Of a stretch of DNA of 64,000 nt, positions 33,805 through 58,617 are shown piece by piece. Within the stretch, counting starts at the first letter, position 1, and the number at the start of each line of letters is the position of its first letter. Source of the DNA: Ulota crispa (Eukaryota > Streptophyta > Bryopsida > Orthotrichales > Orthotrichaceae); NCBI GenBank assembly GCA_963920765.1, contig OY987243.1:28829060-28893059 (forward strand), given 5' to 3'. Both the position numbers and the translations under genes were made by a program. Under the pieces are notes generated by a model, which worked only from the letters and a program-made list of their open reading frames with translations, made no database searches and was not told the DNA's origin.

Positions 33805-36800
33805 CTACAACTTGTCCTCGAAGTCGGAGAGCGGCGTCATCTGTTCCTTGAGCCCCTTGCGCTTCCGGATGTCCGTCACGATGGTGGCCGACTGCGTGGA
33901 CGGGTCCATGGGGTCGCTGTTGAGCATCTCCCAGTGGTCGAACACGCACTGCGGGAACGCCTGCCCCGACGTCGCCGCCCGCAGCGTCCCCGAGAACCCG
34001 AACGACTCGATCACCGGCAGGTACGCCTTGATGTTGTACAGCGGCGTCCCGGGCCGCTGCACCTCCTCGAACACGTGCCCGCGCTTCTGGTTCAGCACGC
34101 CGTAGATGCCGCCCAGCGCGCCCTCCGGCGCCTGGATCTCCACCAGGTACACCGGCTCCAGCAGCCGCGGCTTCGCCGTCAGCATCGCCGCGTACATCAC
34201 GCGCCGCGCCGTCGGGATGATCTGCCCGCCGCCGCGGTGGATGGCGTCCGTGTGCAGCACCACGTCGCACACCTCGAACGCGATCCCGCGCATGTTCTCC
34301 TCCGCCAGCGCGCCCTCCTTCGTCGCCCACTGGAACGCCGCCACCACCGAGTCCTTGATCTCGTTCAGGTACTGCACCCCCTTGCACATGTCCACCACCA
34401 TATTCGGCCCCGTCGTCTCCGGCCCGAAGCACCAGATCTTCTTCGCCAGGTCCTTGTCCCACCCGAACTCCTGCGCCAGAATCTGGCTCCGCACCTTCGG
34501 GTCGTCCCGCGGCCCGATGCGCCCGTCGTCGATCGCCTCCGGCAGCCCCTCCTCCAGCGGCCGCGCCTCGAAGTACAGCCTGTTGTGCTTGTTCGGCGAC
34601 TTGCTCATCACCGTCCGCACCGACTTGTCCAGCACCGTCTCCCGGAACGACACCACCGGGTCCGACACCACGATCTCCGCGCCGCCCATGAAGTCGTCCT
34701 GCAGGTCCTTCAGGCAGATCTCCAGATGCAGCTCTCCCGCCCCCGCGATGATGTGCTCCCCGCTCTCCTCGATCATGCACAGCACCATCGGGTCCGACTT
34801 CGCCAGCCGCTTCAGCCCCTCCACCAGCTTCGGCAGATCCGACGCGTGCTTGCACTGCACCGCCACGCGCACCACCGGCGACACCGAGAACTTCATCGCT
34901 CGGATCGGGTGCGCGTCCACCTCCTTCTCGCCCGTCAGCGTCGCGTTCTTCGTGATGAACTGGTCCAGCCCCACCATCGCCACCGTGTTCCCGCACGGCA
35001 CGTCCTCCACCGACTCCTGCCTCCTCCCCATCCAGATCACCGTCCGCTGCACCGACTTCGTGTACAGGTCCTTCTTGCCCCCGGGCACGTAGTTCGGCCC
35101 CATGATCCGCACCTTCATCCCCGTCGACACCTTCCCCGCGAACACGCGCCCGAACGCGAAGAACCGCCCCTTGTCCGACGCCGGAATCATCTTCGACACG
35201 TACAGCATCAGCGGCCCGTTCGGGTCGCAGTTCCGGATGGCGTTCGCGTACTGGTCGTCCAGCGGGCCCTCGTACAGGTTCTCCACCCTGTACCGCTGCG
35301 CCTTCGCCGGCGACGGCAGGTGGAAGATCATCATCTCCAGCAGCGCGCTCGCCGCCGGCAGCCACGCCTGCATCGTCCTCTTCATCAGCGCCTTGCCCAC
35401 CAGCTCCTTCTCGTCCGACTTCAGCCCGCAGTTGAGCTTCGCCAACATCGGCCACAGCTTGTCCTTCTGGTCGTTCATGCAGATGTTGATCACCTGCTTG
35501 ATCGGGTTGTACACGAACTGCACGAACCCGCGCTGGCACGTCCCCGACCCCGTGTTCTTCGTCGTCCACTTGCGCGTCGCCGGGTCGAAGTAGTTCTCGC
35601 CCCACAGCCTCTCCATCATCTTCTTCTCGTCCACCCCGAACTTCCCCGCGTACATCTTCGCGAAGTTCGTCAGCGTGAACGCCCACCCGTGCAGACCCGC
35701 CGAGAACGCCACCGTCCCCTTCTCCGGGTACACCTGCACGTCTCCCAGCAGCTCGTCCTCGTACGTCGCCATGATCACGTTCGCGCTCTCGATCACGCGC
35801 TGGAACGTCTGGTACGCCTCCTCGCCCTCCACCTGCAGCTCCAGGAAGCACCTGTCCATCTTGTTCACCGTCAGCACCGGCCTGATCCTCTCTCCCAGCG
35901 CCTGCCGCAGCACCGTCTCCGTCTGCACGCACACTCCCTCCACGCAATCCACCACCACCAGCGCACCGTCGGTGATCCGCAGAGCGGCCGTCACCTCCGA
36001 CGAGAAATCGACGTGCCCGGGGGAATCGATCAGGTTGATCAGATAGTCGTGTCCGTCCTTCTCGCCGTGGTAGTCCTTCAGAGACTCCACCGACATCTCG
36101 TAGTACAGCGAGATGCCGGTGGACTTGATCGTGATGCCACGCTCCGCCTCATCGGTACGGGTGTCGGTCAGACGCACATCTCCGGCAGTCTCCTGGGCGA
36201 TAATTCCGGCGGCAGCGACGAGGGAGTCCGTCAAAGTCGACTTTCCTGTGACGCAATACCAACCCAAGCCGTGTCAGAAAATACGAAAAAGGACATGATT
36301 GAAACACACCGATAGTGATTTCCTGAATTCGCCAGATACTCTCTGAAGTCCTTTGCAAAAGACGCTGCAGATACCGCACCGTGTGCAAAACATCAAGTTT
36401 GTCATCGAACCAAACGTCTACCAACGACTTACCAGAATTTCACAGAAGCAAAAAGGAAATGCATTTCTGAAGCGTAGTCTAAAATGCTCTTTGCTGAACT
36501 ACCACACAAATCTCTACGACACGATAACAAAATAAGCGAGAACTTTTCAGTGATATTAGGGAACTGGACTGGTAAACAGTTTAGGTTGATTTGGAGCTTT
36601 GAACACGTATAGTGAACAGCGAAAGGTAAAGTTTCAAACAGCAGAGGGCAGCCGCAAACCGCTGGACTATCTTGAAAAGTCAAACAATTGTTTCTGAAAT
36701 ATCTCGTGTACACGTACTATTCCTACTTGTGACACAAGATTTGCTTTTGCAAATGAATCGAAAGGATAGTTTACATCTTCAACCAGCAGTAACAGACAAT

Positions 36801-49536: not shown

Positions 49537-49800
49537 ACCCCTCACCGCCCAAGGGCCCAAATTGGGCTTCTCTGAATTTTATTCAAGGATGCTCAACCTT
49601 CCTACAAGATTTGTTTTAGCAATTATTATTATTTTAAAACTTTTATTGAAGTTTAGTTTCAGCATGAGGAGTCTAATTTTGAAAATGAAAAGTGATTTGT
49701 CTATTCAAGATTTGTGTGCAAGGGTGTCCATTGCAATGCTTCATTTTTTAGTGTTGAAGGCCCAGGGGAGCACTCCATGTTTTTGTATTGGTAACGTGCA
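49537..49800. mobile_element. Family E fragment
   Basis: Starts ACCCCTCACCGCCCAAGGGC and carries E words (TTCAAGATTTGTGTGCAAGG, GTGTTGAAGGCC) but loses similarity near 49800. It is the left part of a truncated copy. Confidence 0.65.
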
Positions 49801-50744
49801 ATCAAATGAAGGGGAATTATAATTATGTGGCACCTAAATTTTAGAAAATTTTTAGGAAAAAAATAGCATCAATACAATGGCTTTTTAGTTTTATAAAGAA
49901 TGAAAGGTACAAGAAAGTACTGAAATTTTGCTAATTTTCATTTCTATAATAGCATTGCTAAAATTAAAAAAATAGACCAAGATTAAAAAAAGAAACAACT
50001 AGACTTGCCAAAAGGCCTACCAAAAGGATCCAAGGCGTGATTATCATTCCTCATATTCCCTTATAGTGGTAATGGATGAATTCATGCTATGGATGAATGT
50101 CAAACATGTGGTTTGCATTCGTCAATGTAGCAAGGGTTTTCTCTCTCCCAGTGAGTGTAGGGTTATAGTGTGGGCATTTTTTATCAAGACCCATCATTTT
50201 ACGATTGCATTGGATCTCTACGGTGCAAGTTTTTTCTTACTTTGAGTACACAGCAGGGCAACCGCGGTTTATGGTGCTTCCGCTCATTTGTATTGCTGAA
50301 ATATTATTGAGGGCAAATCAAATTGGAAGTTGACGTTGGTCTTCTTCATTGTCGTGTGCATTTGTCTGGTGAGCATTTTGGTTGAGGGCTTCTTGAAATT
50401 GTCACGGCGTGGAATTGCAGGGTTCCTTCACTGTTCAGAGTGGCAACATCTCACTTTTAAATTTGAGAATGGTCTAGGGAGAATTAGCGTATATGCCCTG
50501 ACCGTTGTGCATATCTTTTAGGGTTTAGGGTGTGTCAAATTTCTTCACCTGCAAGTTAGGGTTTAGGAAATTTCATCATTTGCGGTATATAGTGTTTTCA
50601 ATTTCCTCATCTGCAATTCAGGATGTTTTCAATTTCCTCATCTCAATTTAGGGTGTTCTCAATTTTTTCATCTACGATTTAGGATTTAGTTGTTCTTTCC
50701 AATTCACAATAATCTTTACTGTTTCATGTGTTCAGGGTTGTAAC
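49801..50744. other. Region upstream of the transposase-like pseudogene
   Basis: No gene. At 50570-50700 a ~30-base unit (TTTTCAATTTCCTCATCTGC type) repeats three to four times, mixed with TTTAGGGTTTAGG words. It may hold the promoter and left end of the decayed element that follows, but I found no terminal repeat. Confidence 0.4.
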
Positions 50745-53700
50745 ATGGCTAATACTACCGCCAATAGGGTTACGCTGTGGACATTGGAGGAAGAGAGCAC
50801 AACTCCGGAGTATTTTGGCAAAGTCAATATTGCAGGTGCCCTGATGCTTGATGCATTTTGGATTACACTAGAAGCCAACGACATTTTCTAGTGGCCTTTT
50901 CAATTTTGGGATGTTGAAGACAAGCAATGCATCCATAAGAAATTGGAGCAGGTGAACAGCATCTATGCTGAGGTTTTTGTCATTTAACTTCTTGAAGGGG
51001 GCGGTGATTCATACAAGAGATGCCGTGTGGAGGATGGTTCTCCCTTTTGGACCACCATAGAGGTTGTGTCTGATGTAGACGACGTGGTTGAAGTTGAAGT
51101 ACCAGTATTGGATACAACAATTCCGGTTGTCGACTCTTCGAGGGTGAGCAATAGCACAGATTCCAGCAACATTGACGATGTCCCTTGCAAATTGGTTCTT
51201 TTGCCAAATGAGGTCATGACCGCTATTTGGAGAGGGCCAAAAAACTTTGGTCAGAGTTGAAGAGGATTGGGATGTCTGACCACGGCTGGTGGCTGAAGAC
51301 CTTTGACCTGAATGGGAATGGAGTTGTTAAATTGTGGTGCAGGGAGTGCAAGAAGGATTGTGGAGGTGGAACCAAGGACCACACAAAGGCACATATTGAT
51401 AACTTGTTCAATAATTTCCGCTGATCGCACATTGTGAGTGCAGCCCACATGAAGAATTTTTGTGTAGTGAAGAATGTGAACTTTGATGACCATCCGCAAT
51501 CAGAGTCCAAAAACAGGAGGGGTGTCACTTTGAAGCCGGAGGATCACAAGCACATGATTGCAGATGGAGTAGACATTGTCAAATCAATGAATGCCACTCT
51601 TCCAGAAGGACACAAACACTTCATAGTTCCTAGGAATTTAGAAGCAGCTGACACTAGATGTTACTGGTTTAAGGTAAAATGTCAATATTGTTGAGATTTG
51701 ATGGTGCTCTGCCCGTTGAAGAAGAACCTCGAAGTGAACTTGAGAAACCACATAAGTGGTCCAAAACACAAGAACGCTGTTGAGGATGCCGAGAGGGTGC
51801 AGAAGGAGCCACCAAGAACTGGGCAACTGAAACGTCCAAGTAGGTTGAACACCACCAGTTCTCATTCAAACCAAGGTGATCTTCACACATGGCTCATACG
51901 GAGTACGTCTAATACTGTGGAAGGTATGCCCCAAACTCTAGACAAAAACTATATTGCTAGATTCATGTGTTATAGTTTTCGTGGTCCAAGTGTTTGGTAT
52001 GGGGGTAACTTGTATGCGGTTACTACATTACTGAACGACCCTCATTTTGGTAAGGAATGGTATTCGGAGCCACATCTATCTACTGTAATTCACGTGAATA
52101 ATGATATTGTTCAAGTAAATGGGACATTTTGTCATAGACAATGCAGTCGGTTGTTCGTCTCTCTGGATCCGTTCCCAAATCTAACTTGCCCTCTATGTGC
52201 CCAAATTCCACTTGAGAATGATTTCAAAATGAGAATCCGGAGAGAGGACCAGGCATTGGTCAAGAGGGGCCATAGAAGCACTATTGGTAGGATACATTTA
52301 GGATATCTCTCTGTTCATGAAGTGTCTAAATTCACAAGAGAGTTGTCTAGGAAGTACCGAGTACAAAAATTGCATTATTGGCATGCCAAAACAAGGATAG
52401 TGCAGCTCAAGGTCAAAAAACCAACTTTGCGTGAGAGTGCTATGAATGTCGCCTCTAATAACAATATCATGAAATTTTGTAATAATATACTTAGTGCACA
52501 TCGGATAGGAGCGTCCGGGGGCAAACTAGGACTTTGGGACTTCATGAAAGACATGGCGGCCAATCTGAATAGGGATGCTTGTGGTCATCGGTTTAGCAAG
52601 ATCACGAAGTACTTTTCACAAGCTATGCGGATATATGGGAGTTGTTGTCTTTGCAATTTGTTTGCACTAAACTTTGGAGGACCTAGTTACAATACTATTT
52701 GCCTAGAATGTAGGAAATGGGTTCAGTTTATAGCAGGGGAACATGCATAAATATTTGAGTCCATTGCTAGTGTTTACAGTGAGGCTAAGGCTGCTCACAA
52801 GATAACTGGCCCTATTCCAGTTATACTTGCTAAAGACGAGACTAAGGTGAGGGGTCGTGTGTTGTGGGAGGCAAAGTGGGATACAATGGTGGGATTCTGT
52901 GGTCCAAAGGAAGACCACGTTTGTGTCCCGCATTATAAGCTTGTTAAGGGAGTTGGGGAAGTGGGGTACAATTTGATGGTTCAATCCTTAAAGTTGGACA
53001 AGGTCGGTGGCTTTGCTAGAGTAATAGTTGTGAATCCATTGCATGAGAAATTGCCTCGGTTAGTGCTTGTTGCTTGCTGCACCTGTAGTTGTTTTGACTC
53101 ACAATGGGTTAGACGGCAATGGGATAGGATTGATGAATTGTGGATGAAGCACTGCTACTCTGTTGTGGGTCCTATTGTAGGGCACGCAAGTGATGGCAAC
53201 TCACAAAGAAGGCAATTAATGCTTCAAGATTTCAGATGTGTGCAAGGGCCAAGGTTATCAATTGATTGGGAGGGCTAGGTTTTCACTTTAGCTTTGAACT
53301 TGCATGGTGAAGCTACAGGTTTGCATGATCAAGACTATATTTACAATGGTAAGAAACTCCTAAACCCTATTGATAGCAATGTCCATACTTTGAGACTAGG
53401 AGGTGACCTAGCTCTCCACTAGCAAATTTGTCAAGTATTCAATTGTTTCACAGTTGATGAACATGGATTACTTCAAGAGGATTTTGATAGAAAGGATAGG
53501 CAAAATTGGGGTAGCGCACAAAGGTTGTGTTCACAAAAGGTTAGGGATTGCCTACAATCTCTTTGCTTGTGTAATGATGTCCATTGTGAATGCACTCTCT
53601 GTACTAAGGTTTATTCAAAGATATGTGCAGATTACATCGACATATTCCTGTCTCCACGCCATGACCTTCAGGATCAAATTGTGAAAGCCACAAAGGTTTC

Positions 53701-55368
53701 TTTTTTTTTCAGGATTTGGAAATTATGGGTGAAGCATGGTAATCATGGGGTGATGGGTGATATTGAGCCTGTGAATCCAAAAGTCAATTTGTTAGCCAAC
53801 AATGTTTCTTGGATATACAGATGTCATGTCACTTTGTGGTTTTGCTTCTCTGTCATTCTTGCAATAACTACCTTCATCTAATTGTACCCTTACATCTAAT
53901 TGGTAGCGACTCATGTGAGATATTTTTCTCCAAAATTGGAGGAATAATAGGCATGGAAAAGGCATATGACTTTCATGAATTGGTGGGATGTGTGAACATT
54001 GTAAACTTTTTGTCCCAGATTGAGTACGGTGGGAATGGGATTAAGTTTGGCAAGGCACACAACAAGATGAACAACATTTGGAGGAAGTTGCATGGATTGC
54101 AAGACAGTGAAGTGCACCCTGATCTTGGAGACTACACAGCTATAGCAATCAATGATCAAGTAATTGGAGCCTTATAAGAGGGGTTAAAGGATGCTCAAAG
54201 GTTGCTGAACAGCCTGAACATGGCCCCCCATGCATAAGCAGCTGCCAAGCACAAGGTGTGGTTTGAGAAGCCATGGAGTATTGAGCGAGCAGATAAACAG
54301 TCATTTGGCTTCACGGCCTCTGCCAATCCTGTGCATGATGAAGATGGTGACATGGAAGTCCTCCGTGACGATTTGCAGTAGAAAGAGCGTGAGTTAGAAC
54401 TTCAAGCCGACGCAGCAGAGATTCCAAGAGAGCAATTAAATTCGGTGGAGCAGTCTAAAGAAGATGTACTAGACGATGGGGTTCTCGCTCTGACCGTTCT
54501 AGAGAGTGAAATACGTGATGTGATTTCTGACATGTTGAGCAGTCACAAAGAGCAAGTGACTTTGATACCACTGCCGGTTAAAGTTGAAGCATTTGTCAAG
54601 TTTGGTGGTCACAAAATTTTCAAGTCAACTTTAGTTGGGTAGTTAAATGGTAATCCATTTACGTTGAAAGATCGTTTGACTTGAGTTAAGAATTCTATAT
54701 ATTATAATAACAGCAATGCATACCTTTGTGCTGCCAAATGCTCAAGTATTTGTTTTGTTGGGATAGGGTTAGATGTTGGGGCTTTTTTTGTGCAGCGTTT
54801 GACGATCACACAATTGTCAATCGTGACTGCAGCGAAAAAGCAAGGGAAATGTAGAGCTGCAAAGTCCGGTGTTGCTACTTCTGTATTGCAAGATATGGAC
54901 ATGGATACGTGGTGGGTGGAACGTATCCAAAAAATGCGAAGGCGTGCTGGTGGTACTTTGTGGAGATCATTGAAGCAGCCAGTTGATTTGGCAAACCGCG
55001 ACAGACCCACAAGTAAGAACCCCAACCCAAATTCTAATATTCAGCTTATGATGCACTATTATACTCGTGAACTTGGGCAATACAAATTCAAGTATAATTT
55101 AATTGACTCAAAATGGATTGATCTTGAGTTCATCATCACTAATGTTACTCTCACTTATAATTCTAAATGTCATGTTTATAGCTTAGATGCTAGTGATGCA
55201 GAGAACCTTAATGATTATATGTCCAATAATGCAGTGTGGTTCTTCTTTTTAGCCTTCTCATCCGTCTTATTTATTTGTTACGTTTATAATACAATTTCTG
55301 TGAGTCAATTTGATTTCCCAAAATATAAAATCCTATTTAAGCATATAGTAACATATTTCTTGGTATAA
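50745..55368 (+). pseudogene. Decayed intronless transposase-like gene
   Basis: A single reading frame can be followed from the ATG at 50745 (MANTTANRVTLWTLEEES) to about 55236, broken by in-frame stops at 50889, 50985, 51422, 51692, 52748, 53276, 53420, 54175, 54235, 54379, 54640 and 54682, and by frameshifts near 51225 and 53800. The longest intact piece is 51698-52750. Visible parts in order: an acidic N-terminus; a CxxC...H zinc-finger-like segment (WCRECKKDCGG); a second finger (CxxC...HISGPKHK); Cys pairs CPLCAQ and CCLCN...CLEC; then a core with ILAKDETKVRG (Asp at 52835), HASDGNSQRRQL (Asp at 53192) and GSDSCEIFFSKIGG (Glu at 53917). Zinc fingers followed by three well-placed acids suggest an RNase H-fold DDE transposase; the last motif resembles the Glu helix of P-element/THAP9-type enzymes. 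The superfamily call is an inference. The C-terminal part includes KFGGHKIFKSTLVG and MRRRAGGTLWRS. It is not translatable as it stands. Confidence 0.75.
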
Positions 55369-56095
55369 CAGGATAATCGTAAACCTTGAAGTAGATAGTA
55401 TTGCTTGAAATATTCTCATTCTGAACCTTAAAGTGAATTTACATGTGAGCTGAGAAATGGTTTTTGAAAGGCCCCAAATTTTGGAAAACTCTCCTTTAGT
55501 GTAGACTCTCCTTTGTTCACTCTCAAGTGTGCAAGTCTATGGAAAAGGTTATATGGGGGTGGTAGAATACCAAAACTTGACATTGCCTAAACAATCATTT
55601 TATGTCAGCCAATGTTCAGGAGGCTGCGAATCCATCATGTGCCTGACGACCCTCAAATCTAACGTGGTGGGAGATGTGAGGGTACTTGTTGTGAAGTAGA
55701 AAGTACCATCAAGCTTTCAATTGTGACATTCTGGATGGAACCATCAAGGCAAAATCACAAATCTCCAGATTTGTGGGAAGGGACGGGGGAAGTGATGTTT
55801 TAGGAAAGGGGTGTCTTTGGAAAGGGATGTGTTTGGAAAGGGATGTGTTTGGAGAATCAGGATCATGAAATCGTGTGGAGGAGATATCGGTGAGGGCGCT
55901 AAAAAACTTCATGGGGCCGCCAATCCGGCACATATACCTCTAGAAATCCTACATTGCCTAGTAAGTCCTTTGAATCGCCTCGTTTCCCTTCAAAAGTTAA
56001 ATTACTTAAGGGGTTGTTGTTTTTAGCCGTTGTAGAGTGTAGTCGCTGTTGCATTGCACAGACCTTGCGGATTTTTCTTTGCTCCAGTTTTAGAA
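55369..56095. other. Spacer between the two broken frames
   Basis: No gene is visible. A tandem of ~16 bases (GGAAAGGGATGTGTTT) lies at about 55802-55855. If the frames on either side belong to one element, this is its internal spacer. Confidence 0.4.
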
Positions 56096-56608
56096 ATGGC
56101 ATTCAAGCGCCAAAAGATGGATCAAGGCATTGTCATGGACGTGTGGCTAAGCTACTTCCTTGATCACTGTTGTTGGTCGCATGATGGCTAGGTGCGCTTA
56201 GAGTGTGGTCATGAGGATTGTGTCGGTATGCTGTGGACCTGGGCAGCGTGGGCGGCTGCATCAAAGCAACACTAGCAGTTAGCAGGGGTCACTGTCACCT
56301 GGGCTGCTCTACAGCTAGTGTTGTCTGAGCTCGAAGTCGTTAAGGGGGAGCTTTCAAATTGCCGGGCCTAGAAATTTCTGCTAGAACAGTTCGACAATAA
56401 GGTTGCCTTGTTCAACAAATCTTGGAGGGTTTCTGCAATTCTTCCGGAGTACATGCGCACACAACCGCTTGACGACCTAAGCGTGCACGATTTGCAGCAA
56501 CTTTGGCGGACTATCCTTGCAGGTTGGCAGATGGAGATTGAAGTGGGAATAGTTGACACTTCTGCGGAGTCTGAGAACATTTGGATGAAACCTGCAATGC
56601 GCACTTGA
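56096..56608 (+). pseudogene. Second broken frame, ~170 codons with three TAG stops
   Basis: From ATG 56096 (MAFKRQKMDQGIVMDVWLSY) one frame continues to the TGA at 56606 with no frameshift, interrupted only by three TAG codons (about 56189, 56273 and 56369). The segments are coding-like in composition: Trp-rich, then acidic and helical (LVLSELEVVKGEL; YMRTQPLDDLSVHDLQQLWR). I do not recognise the protein. It lies on the same strand about 1.2 kb after the transposase-like pseudogene and may be its accessory gene. Confidence 0.5.
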
Positions 56609-57375
56609 GGTAAGCACCTTGCTTTCCCTCCTCACAATTCCCTGAATGCACAAATTTGCATTCCTCGCTATGAATGTATGTTGAAGTTGAATTGTTGGAT
56701 TTGGTATGTGTTCTTTGACCCCCGCCCACAATATTCATCTACTGCTCGTACTGTGCAGAGTTGGAATGGAATGTGTGAGCACTCGTCAATTGGAGTGCTT
56801 CAGTGTGTTGCTATCTTTTGAAATGGAAAATGCCGCTAGTACTTTTTGGATTTCTAGGCTATTAAATGCTTCATCCACTCTTTTTCTTCACAGTTGATGT
56901 CTACGTTTTTTAGATGTCATGAGTTCCTACGTTTTGGACGGGTTTATGAAATTTTGGACTTGCACATACGACAGATATTGTTTTTGCTACAATTTTAAAC
57001 ATTGTAATGTTGTAGATTTTTTGTACAAATTTTGTAATGTGTGATTAAACACATACAACATTAAAAAATAGTTAGTGGTAAGGCATTTCTTTCATGAACT
57101 TGCAAATGTAATGAATTTCAAACTATTTGTTTGCTATTTTTGCATCTTTCACTGTTTTTGATGAATTCTAAACCTTTGAACTCCCAATGTTGAATGCCTA
57201 CACCACCCAAAGCCCTAATTCTATGTTTCCTTCATCCTAAGACCGTAAAAGTAAACCCTGACCCTAAACCACTTCTTCACAAACCATAAACCCAAATCCT
57301 ATTATTCTCTGGGACCTGACTTCTCTCTATTGACCAACTTCTGTCATTAATACCAACTCGTATCTTTATACACCT
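56609..57375. other. Gene-free stretch
   Basis: AT-rich sequence with no gene or clear repeat. Any right end of the decayed element should lie here, but I did not find a terminal repeat. Confidence 0.4.
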
Positions 57376-57618
57376 AAGGAGGTAGGAACACCCATAAGCA
57401 TTTGTTTAAGGGTTTTTAACATGATAACAACTAATAAACATCTAGCATTATAAGATCCTACTAGCAAGAGAAAAATAATGAGTTTGCACTTTGAATGTAT
57501 TCTTTGGATACTATGAGAATAAGTTGTGACTTTTTAAAGAGCAAAATGCCATTACACCCATAATCAACACTAGGGTTTCATGTTCACATGTTGTACATCC
57601 TTGTAGTTACATCTACCT
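57376..57618. mobile_element. Family A MITE, copy 5, deleted
   Basis: The left end AGGAGGTAGGAACACCCATA and family A interior are intact (GTTCACATGTTGTACATCCT), but the block normally before the right end is missing, so the copy stops at ACATCTACCT|TA after 243 bases. Confidence 0.8.
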
Positions 57619-58617
57619 TAACCCTTGAAAATAGCCTAAACCCTAAACCTCTAAACATGAAAGGTTTCTATATCTATAATGAATGTAGCATACAATCAAT
57701 TGCACTCAAAATTTATATATAATGAAAGTTAGGGTATCTAGAATGGCCTTACTTTAGAAATTTAGGTAAATGAAGGCCTATATAAATTATAAGAATTTAT
57801 CTACATAGCTATCAAGCAATAGGGGGTTGAACACAGGTGATCAATGGACACCTCAAGGAGTACCCCCCTTGGGGTTGAAGGCTCTTGGAAATGAGCTTCA
57901 AGTACACTAGAACTTGGAAAAAAATATCACATTAATAATTCAATTTCAAAAATTCTAGAATAGATTTTGAGAAGCTGTAAATTGATTGGGGTTATGCATG
58001 TTATACTTTACATACTCATATTTTTTTGGTACCCTCAATTTTAGGTTTGAGATGCAAAAAGAGGATTGAAAGGCTTCAAATCACTTTTGTAGTTTTAACA
58101 CCCTCATGATCAAACATTATAATCTTTCAATCCATAAATGATATTGTTGTGATTTCTTTTTTGATGCGATCTATAACATGTCTACTTTGAATTTGTATGG
58201 TTGCACTTCAAAGAAATTTGATAAGATTGATCAAAAGGCCAACATTTTGTTCACTTTTAAGGTAGATGCAAGAAACACTTCACAGTTTTGTCTCAAACAC
58301 CCTTAAAACTGGTAGTACTAGGTAGTACTATGAACTTTTGAAATAATTTTTTTTAAATAAAATAAAACATGGAAAATTTGTAAAGCACTTAAAATAGCAT
58401 ACTTGTGAAAATTCAGTCCTAGAAAAATTTTATTCTAAAAGTTATGCACAAAAATGGAGGGACAAAAAGTACCAACAAATGGACAATTTCTTTTTTTATT
58501 TTTAGAAAATGGTAAAAAAATTCAAAAAAATAAACCAAAATATGGCCATTGGTGATCACTTTCACTACCATGGGTTCATGCAATTGATTGTCAAAAAAAG
58601 TTTTTGACCTTGCACTA
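57619..58617. repeat. Family E fragment and gene-free flanks
   Basis: About 57868-58250 matches the right two thirds of family E (GAGCTTCAAGTACACTAGA, TCAAACATTATAATCTTTCA). Its left end is lost. The flanks hold no gene; a minus-strand 87-codon frame near 58419-58682 overlaps the MITE that follows and is not supported. Confidence 0.6.

Follow-up and report, generated by a model that had tools for sequence, protein, structure and literature searches.

The window, that is the whole stretch of 64,000 nucleotides of Ulota crispa DNA analysed here, contains a mobile unit of 8,113 bp (49762-57874) flanked on both sides by TTGAAGGC. The left target-site duplication occupies 49754-49761 (9 bases with the G just before it) and is the same as the right one at 57875-57882. 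Its ends are short inverted repeats that match imperfectly: CCAGGGGAGCACTCC, and CCCCAAGGGGGGTACTCC when read on the reverse strand. The left repeat, CCAGGGGAGCACTCCATG, was placed at 49762-49779 on the forward strand from the left-end matches of other copies, and the right repeat at 57857-57874 on the reverse strand (GGAGTACCCCCCTTGGGG on the forward strand) from right-end similarity at other loci. Between them, and all on the forward strand, lie a non-coding 5' part (49780-50744), conserved among copies up to 50099 in blastn alignments, a decayed transposase gene (50745-55260) and a second, smaller gene (56096-56608). An unrelated repeat (57380-57616) is nested near the right end and is about 86-90% identical to 39 other places among the matches listed, for which 40 of 3,292 candidates were scored. 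Outside the element, a long uninterrupted frame on the reverse strand (33805-36273), which from reading by eye we take to be elongation factor 2, coincides with a 2-kb step of G+C content 0.66, the adjoining steps having 0.39 and 0.47. Other neighbouring frames, also read by eye, presumably encode a plastid-L6-like protein and a trichome-birefringence-like protein, and together these frames point to a plant host.

The path of the transposase gene comprises 1,510 codons with 12 stops and 2 frame changes, in agreement with the preliminary description, which had reported an intronless frame of about 1,500 codons, twelve stops and about two frameshifts. It consists of three blocks on the forward strand. 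The first (50745-51257) opens with an ATG and has 171 codons with 2 stops. The second (51245-53800) has 852 codons with 5 stops and holds the fingers, the first two catalytic Asp candidates and most of the insertion domain, and the third (53800-55260) has 487 codons with 5 stops and holds the Glu. The six straight-through frames of the same stretch contain 53 to 110 stops each. Among 500 order-1 Markov sequences of 4,516 bases, in which 2 frame changes were also allowed, the number of stops was at least 46 and on average 65, so that a chance frame was ruled out as the origin of the path. In one related copy (L043), blocks one and two and the first 372 codons of block three can be read without a frame change over 1,386 codons, a path with 17 stops where the other two frames have 92 and 111; the remainder of block three needs a different frame. 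This supports a single intronless gene. Within the interval proposed initially (50745-55368), the frame is present up to 55260, and the final 110 bases or so are probably non-coding, since DNA similarity to the nearest copies stops at 55223-55250 in five of the six compared (the sixth stops earlier). The unit that moved is larger than this interval.

Three Cys/His segments were read from the sequence upstream of the core, and all recur in an alignment of 12 copies (A1): a finger-like segment (51338-51463), a Cys2-His2-like segment (51680-51769) and a Cys-rich segment (52130-52201). They correspond to the CxxC/H finger-like segments noted initially, as do ILAKDET, HASDGN and GSDSCEIFF to the motifs for which spacings of about 119 and 240 residues had been given; we find 119 and about 242 codons, the second distance spanning a frame change. 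The first putative catalytic Asp (ILAKDETK, 52835-52837) is Asp in 27 of 28 rows and the second (GHASDGN, 53192-53194) in 24 of 27. A D(2)H-like motif follows at 53333-53344, where the window reads DYIY and 10 of the 12 rows of A1 have D-x2-H, and then the Asp of YIDIF.SP (53639-53641), found in 22 of 27 rows. The putative catalytic Glu (GSDSCEIFF, 53917-53919) is Glu in 16 of 27 rows and Lys in 9, which is consistent with a G-to-A change. All these features are on the forward strand. The landmarks conserved in A1 are ILA(K/E)DETK, GHASDGDSRRRQLML, DYIHNGKKLIN, YIDIF.SP and GSDSCEIFFSKIGG.

A single-sequence AlphaFold model of the 175-residue core alone had a mean pLDDT of 35.9, too low to interpret. 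Averaged Chou-Fasman propensities, a weak method, gave clear strands at VPVIL before the first Asp, at ARVVVVN, at LVLVACC and, ahead of the D(2)H motif, at GWVFTA. Strands were patchy at LVGF and at GPIIGH before the second Asp, and the signal at WVRDQWERIDKLW was mixed. For the segment around the Glu a strand was called where a helix is expected, and the propensities agree only in part with the order of an RNase H fold.

Counting the window, the left end of the element matches at least 41 places in the host genome, 40 of 181 candidates having been scored; the match starts exactly at 49765 in 24 cases and within 49760-49766 in 33. In six nearby copies, DNA similarity starts at 49764-49765 in three and further inside in the rest. 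Right-end similarity was present in 13 of the 19 other left-end loci that were fetched. In eight of these it stops at 57867-57868, in three at 57835-57842, and in the remaining two at 57861 and 57872. By a fixed rule, an exact 8-bp duplication flanks 8 of the 11 insertions with both ends; one further insertion matches at 7 of 8 bases and two at 6 of 8. For comparison, left and right flanks taken from different copies were paired; of 110 such control pairs none had an exact duplication and 2 agreed at 7 of 8 bases. This test covers 11 of the 20 fetched left-end loci, the window and 10 others, 21 of the 41 matches not having been fetched. It leaves out L049, whose locus is cut off within the flank, L062 and L063, for which no right end was located, and L048, L053 and L057-L060, which are without right-end similarity. 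One of the insertions scored at 6 of 8 (L052) may carry a mutated duplication, as 7 of 8 bases agree by eye in another register; it was not counted as such.

The ten derivatives in this test are 1.06 to 1.64 kb long and have both ends in common with the element of the window. The right ends of four short derivatives (L046, L047, L049, and L055) are 89-92% identical to that of the window, compared with at most 80% in the core for other transposase copies. The transposition of these derivatives may postdate that of the transposase copies.

We searched the host genome (274.8 Mb in 157 contigs) by tblastn with the 175-residue core and obtained 75 matches, which merge by eye into at least 59 loci, window included. 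Core identity at these loci is 33-74%, the window's own match aside. None of the 30 copies examined (L009-L038, the window's own included) is intact, each having 4 to 24 stops within the covered part (594 to 1,179 codons). The 30 copies amount to 28 distinct ones, as two pairs are near-identical inverted duplicates. These pairs, L014/L015 (C10:607914, 854197) and L024/L025 (C11:4758313, 4838061), lie on opposite strands of the same contig, with 99.6-99.97% identity along almost the whole 3.5 kb that was fetched; the match scores of a third pair, on C9 (6076533, 6095498), are equal. Such opposite-strand pairs are either large inverted duplications or assembly artefacts.

The mismatches between the window and copy L040 amount to 0.171, 0.143, and 0.387 at codon positions one, two and three, and the three positions rank in this way, with the third the most mismatched, in all six copies compared with the window (over only about 315 codons in L042). 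This excess shows past selection on the transposase protein, which was selected while the family diversified, the copies decaying afterwards.

The second gene (56096-56608, forward strand) has 170 codons and a stop, with three more in-frame stops. No Pfam match was found for it. Its protein is 43-45% identical to those of three copies, and in three comparisons the mismatches are highest at third codon positions. The host genome matches it at 18 places, that of the window among them, and by eye nine of these have a transposase match no more than about 5 kb away. This second small gene travels with the transposon, and our guess is that its product is a helper protein.

Searches of wider collections returned little. 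Pfam scans of the open pieces, of 12 copies and of the read-through blocks gave chance matches only, with no P-type, hAT, KDZ or Cys-cluster domain. The PDB, searched by sequence and by profile, yielded no relative, the one hit being a kinesin chain at E 0.77. No relative was confirmed among 29, 73 and 12 pattern matches in viral contigs, nor among 65 in prokaryote contigs. A search with PF21787 was as silent in all 14 control genomes as in the host genome and is therefore uninformative. Similar uncharacterised proteins may exist in marine invertebrates, a possibility given no weight in this analysis. The family may thus be undescribed, as the preliminary description had suggested, judging from Pfam, PDB sequences, the viral and prokaryote contigs and the accessible portions of the literature on transposons and moss genomes; relatives elsewhere and earlier names may exist. 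In the part of a 2022 review available to us, the land-plant superfamilies of such transposons are given as Tc1-Mariner, hAT, Sola, MuDR-Foldback, PIF-Harbinger, and CACTA, and P is absent (PMC9033089).

According to the sections available of PMC8230255, the P superfamily string consists of D230, D303, the D339 of a [C/D](2)H motif, and E531; residues 339-528 form an insertion domain, and its D444 contacts GTP. By eye, the matching order D-D-[D(2)H]-E is present in A1, and the motif spacing of one copy (L013) is 119/47/102/93, compared with 73/36/105/87 in the fly enzyme (fly residues from the same sections). We then used hhalign against a P-type profile made of residues 228-559 of the fly P enzyme and one further, provisional P-type sequence. 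The score was 23.0 (E 0.086, probability 0.7%), with E 0.054 for the catalytic part; against the fly sequence alone it was 18.4 (E 0.18, 93 columns). Column shuffles reached the real score in 2 of 60 and 5 of 200 cases, and the reversed profile scored 14.3. The alignment puts the first Asp on D230, the second on D303 and the YIDIF Asp on D444, with the D(2)H column misaligned and the Glu outside the local alignment. None of 200 shuffles had two or more of five key columns on acidic residues (17 had one and 183 none), a register test that is not blind because these columns were chosen with the alignment already in view. When 28 rows were anchored on the window, the match covered only 47 columns around YIDIF (E 0.26). 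No THAP domain was matched by Pfam in the read-through blocks or copies, where other finger-like segments are present. Because the profile match and the THAP search both came out negative, we do not file the Ulota element as a P element.

Several other origins were weighed against a P-like one. A host gene family, or its retrocopies, would account for the intronless frame and for nothing more; the common ends, the target duplications, the short derivatives and the decay of every one of the 30 copies examined argue against it, so that we hold it to be extremely improbable, and a host gene as such was rejected because all these copies are broken. Among transposons, a divergent hAT-type element would share the 8-bp duplication and the [C/D](2)H motif, and would carry a hAT-type insertion domain. 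The hAT superfamily has this motif and an N-terminal zinc finger, as does the Ulota element, whose G-rich ends resemble some hAT ends although they follow the hAT end pattern just loosely. P-element transposases are themselves similar to hAT families, as stated in the available part of PMC3985635. However, none of the scanned pieces or copies matched a hAT Pfam domain, for dimerisation or otherwise, and YIDIF aligns to the FDIF of the P element and a GG comes after the last motif, which is also the case in P-type sequences, the profile partners having been P-type only. A hAT origin is thus improbable in our estimation.

The Kyakuja-Dileera-Zisupton (KDZ) elements invite a similar comparison, having a large protein with Cys clusters that recalls the Ulota protein and its Cys-rich segments upstream of the core. 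Their motif strings appear to differ from those found here, no KDZ or Cys-cluster Pfam domain was matched, and we consider this assignment very unlikely. Duplication length alone does not decide the superfamily, since 8 bp is also the length found for Zisupton and a Dileera element, from what could be consulted of PMC12730594. A wholly separate DDE superfamily, with a convergent or chance resemblance to P, is a stronger contender, although still unlikely: the P profile score is not significant, the two Asp are 119 residues apart rather than 73, and there is no Pfam match, but three Asp fall in register and the spacing of the insertion domain is nearly equal to that in P.

The ends, 8-bp duplications, derivatives and multicopy protein show a dead DNA transposon, in support of the initial view, and Asp-Asp-Glu are conserved in the aligned copies. 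The locus is almost certainly a dead copy of an autonomous 8.1 kb cut-and-paste DNA transposon. Its placement in a distant P-like lineage is favoured, at slightly better than an even chance, and is not proven; the same applies to the whole reading, a dead cut-and-paste transposon together with a P-like placement, which we think a little more probable than its negation. In such an element, the N-terminal zinc fingers would bind the element ends, and the RNase H-type core (Asp 52835, Asp 53192, Glu 53917) would cut these ends and join them to target strands 8 bases apart. Its P-like character, without THAP, would come from the insertion domain, which spans about 195 residues ahead of the Glu and has an Asp where the P element has its GTP-site Asp444. 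Point mutations and frame changes later broke the copies. It is conceivable, at somewhat less than an even chance, that land plants harbour a further superfamily-level cut-and-paste lineage, a sister group of the P elements of animals. It would have zinc fingers of its own where those have THAP, an insertion domain that may bind nucleotides, and a second protein encoded by the element. P-type transposons have been studied as animal elements, and THAP domains are reported to be confined to animals and absent from plants, in what is accessible of PMC7776569. If true, a plant lineage with the P catalytic layout but other fingers would suggest that the core is older than the THAP front end, and would show which parts of the GTP-dependent mechanism are ancestral. 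The Ulota element is also a probe for unclassified repeats of plant genomes.

In comparison with known systems, the Ulota element resembles hAT elements in its 8-bp duplications and differs from them in having no hAT Pfam domain. It likewise shares 8-bp duplications with the KDZ elements Zisupton and Dileera (PMC12730594, available portion), and differs from KDZ in lacking a match to the KDZ Pfam domain. It differs from the P superfamily in the distance between the first two Asp (119 vs 73 in the fly), in a protein of about 1,500 residues, in the second gene and in the plant host, and no Pfam P-type domain was detected in it. In zebrafish, P-type elements are bounded by 13-bp inverted repeats, produce 8-bp duplications and occur also as internally deleted copies, in the portion available of PMC7776569. 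Like the P superfamily (the Drosophila P element and THAP9), the Ulota element shows D-D-[D(2)H]-E in this order, with an insertion domain that measures about 190-195 residues and an Asp at the place of D444, together with 8-bp target duplications, short inverted repeats and internally deleted copies.
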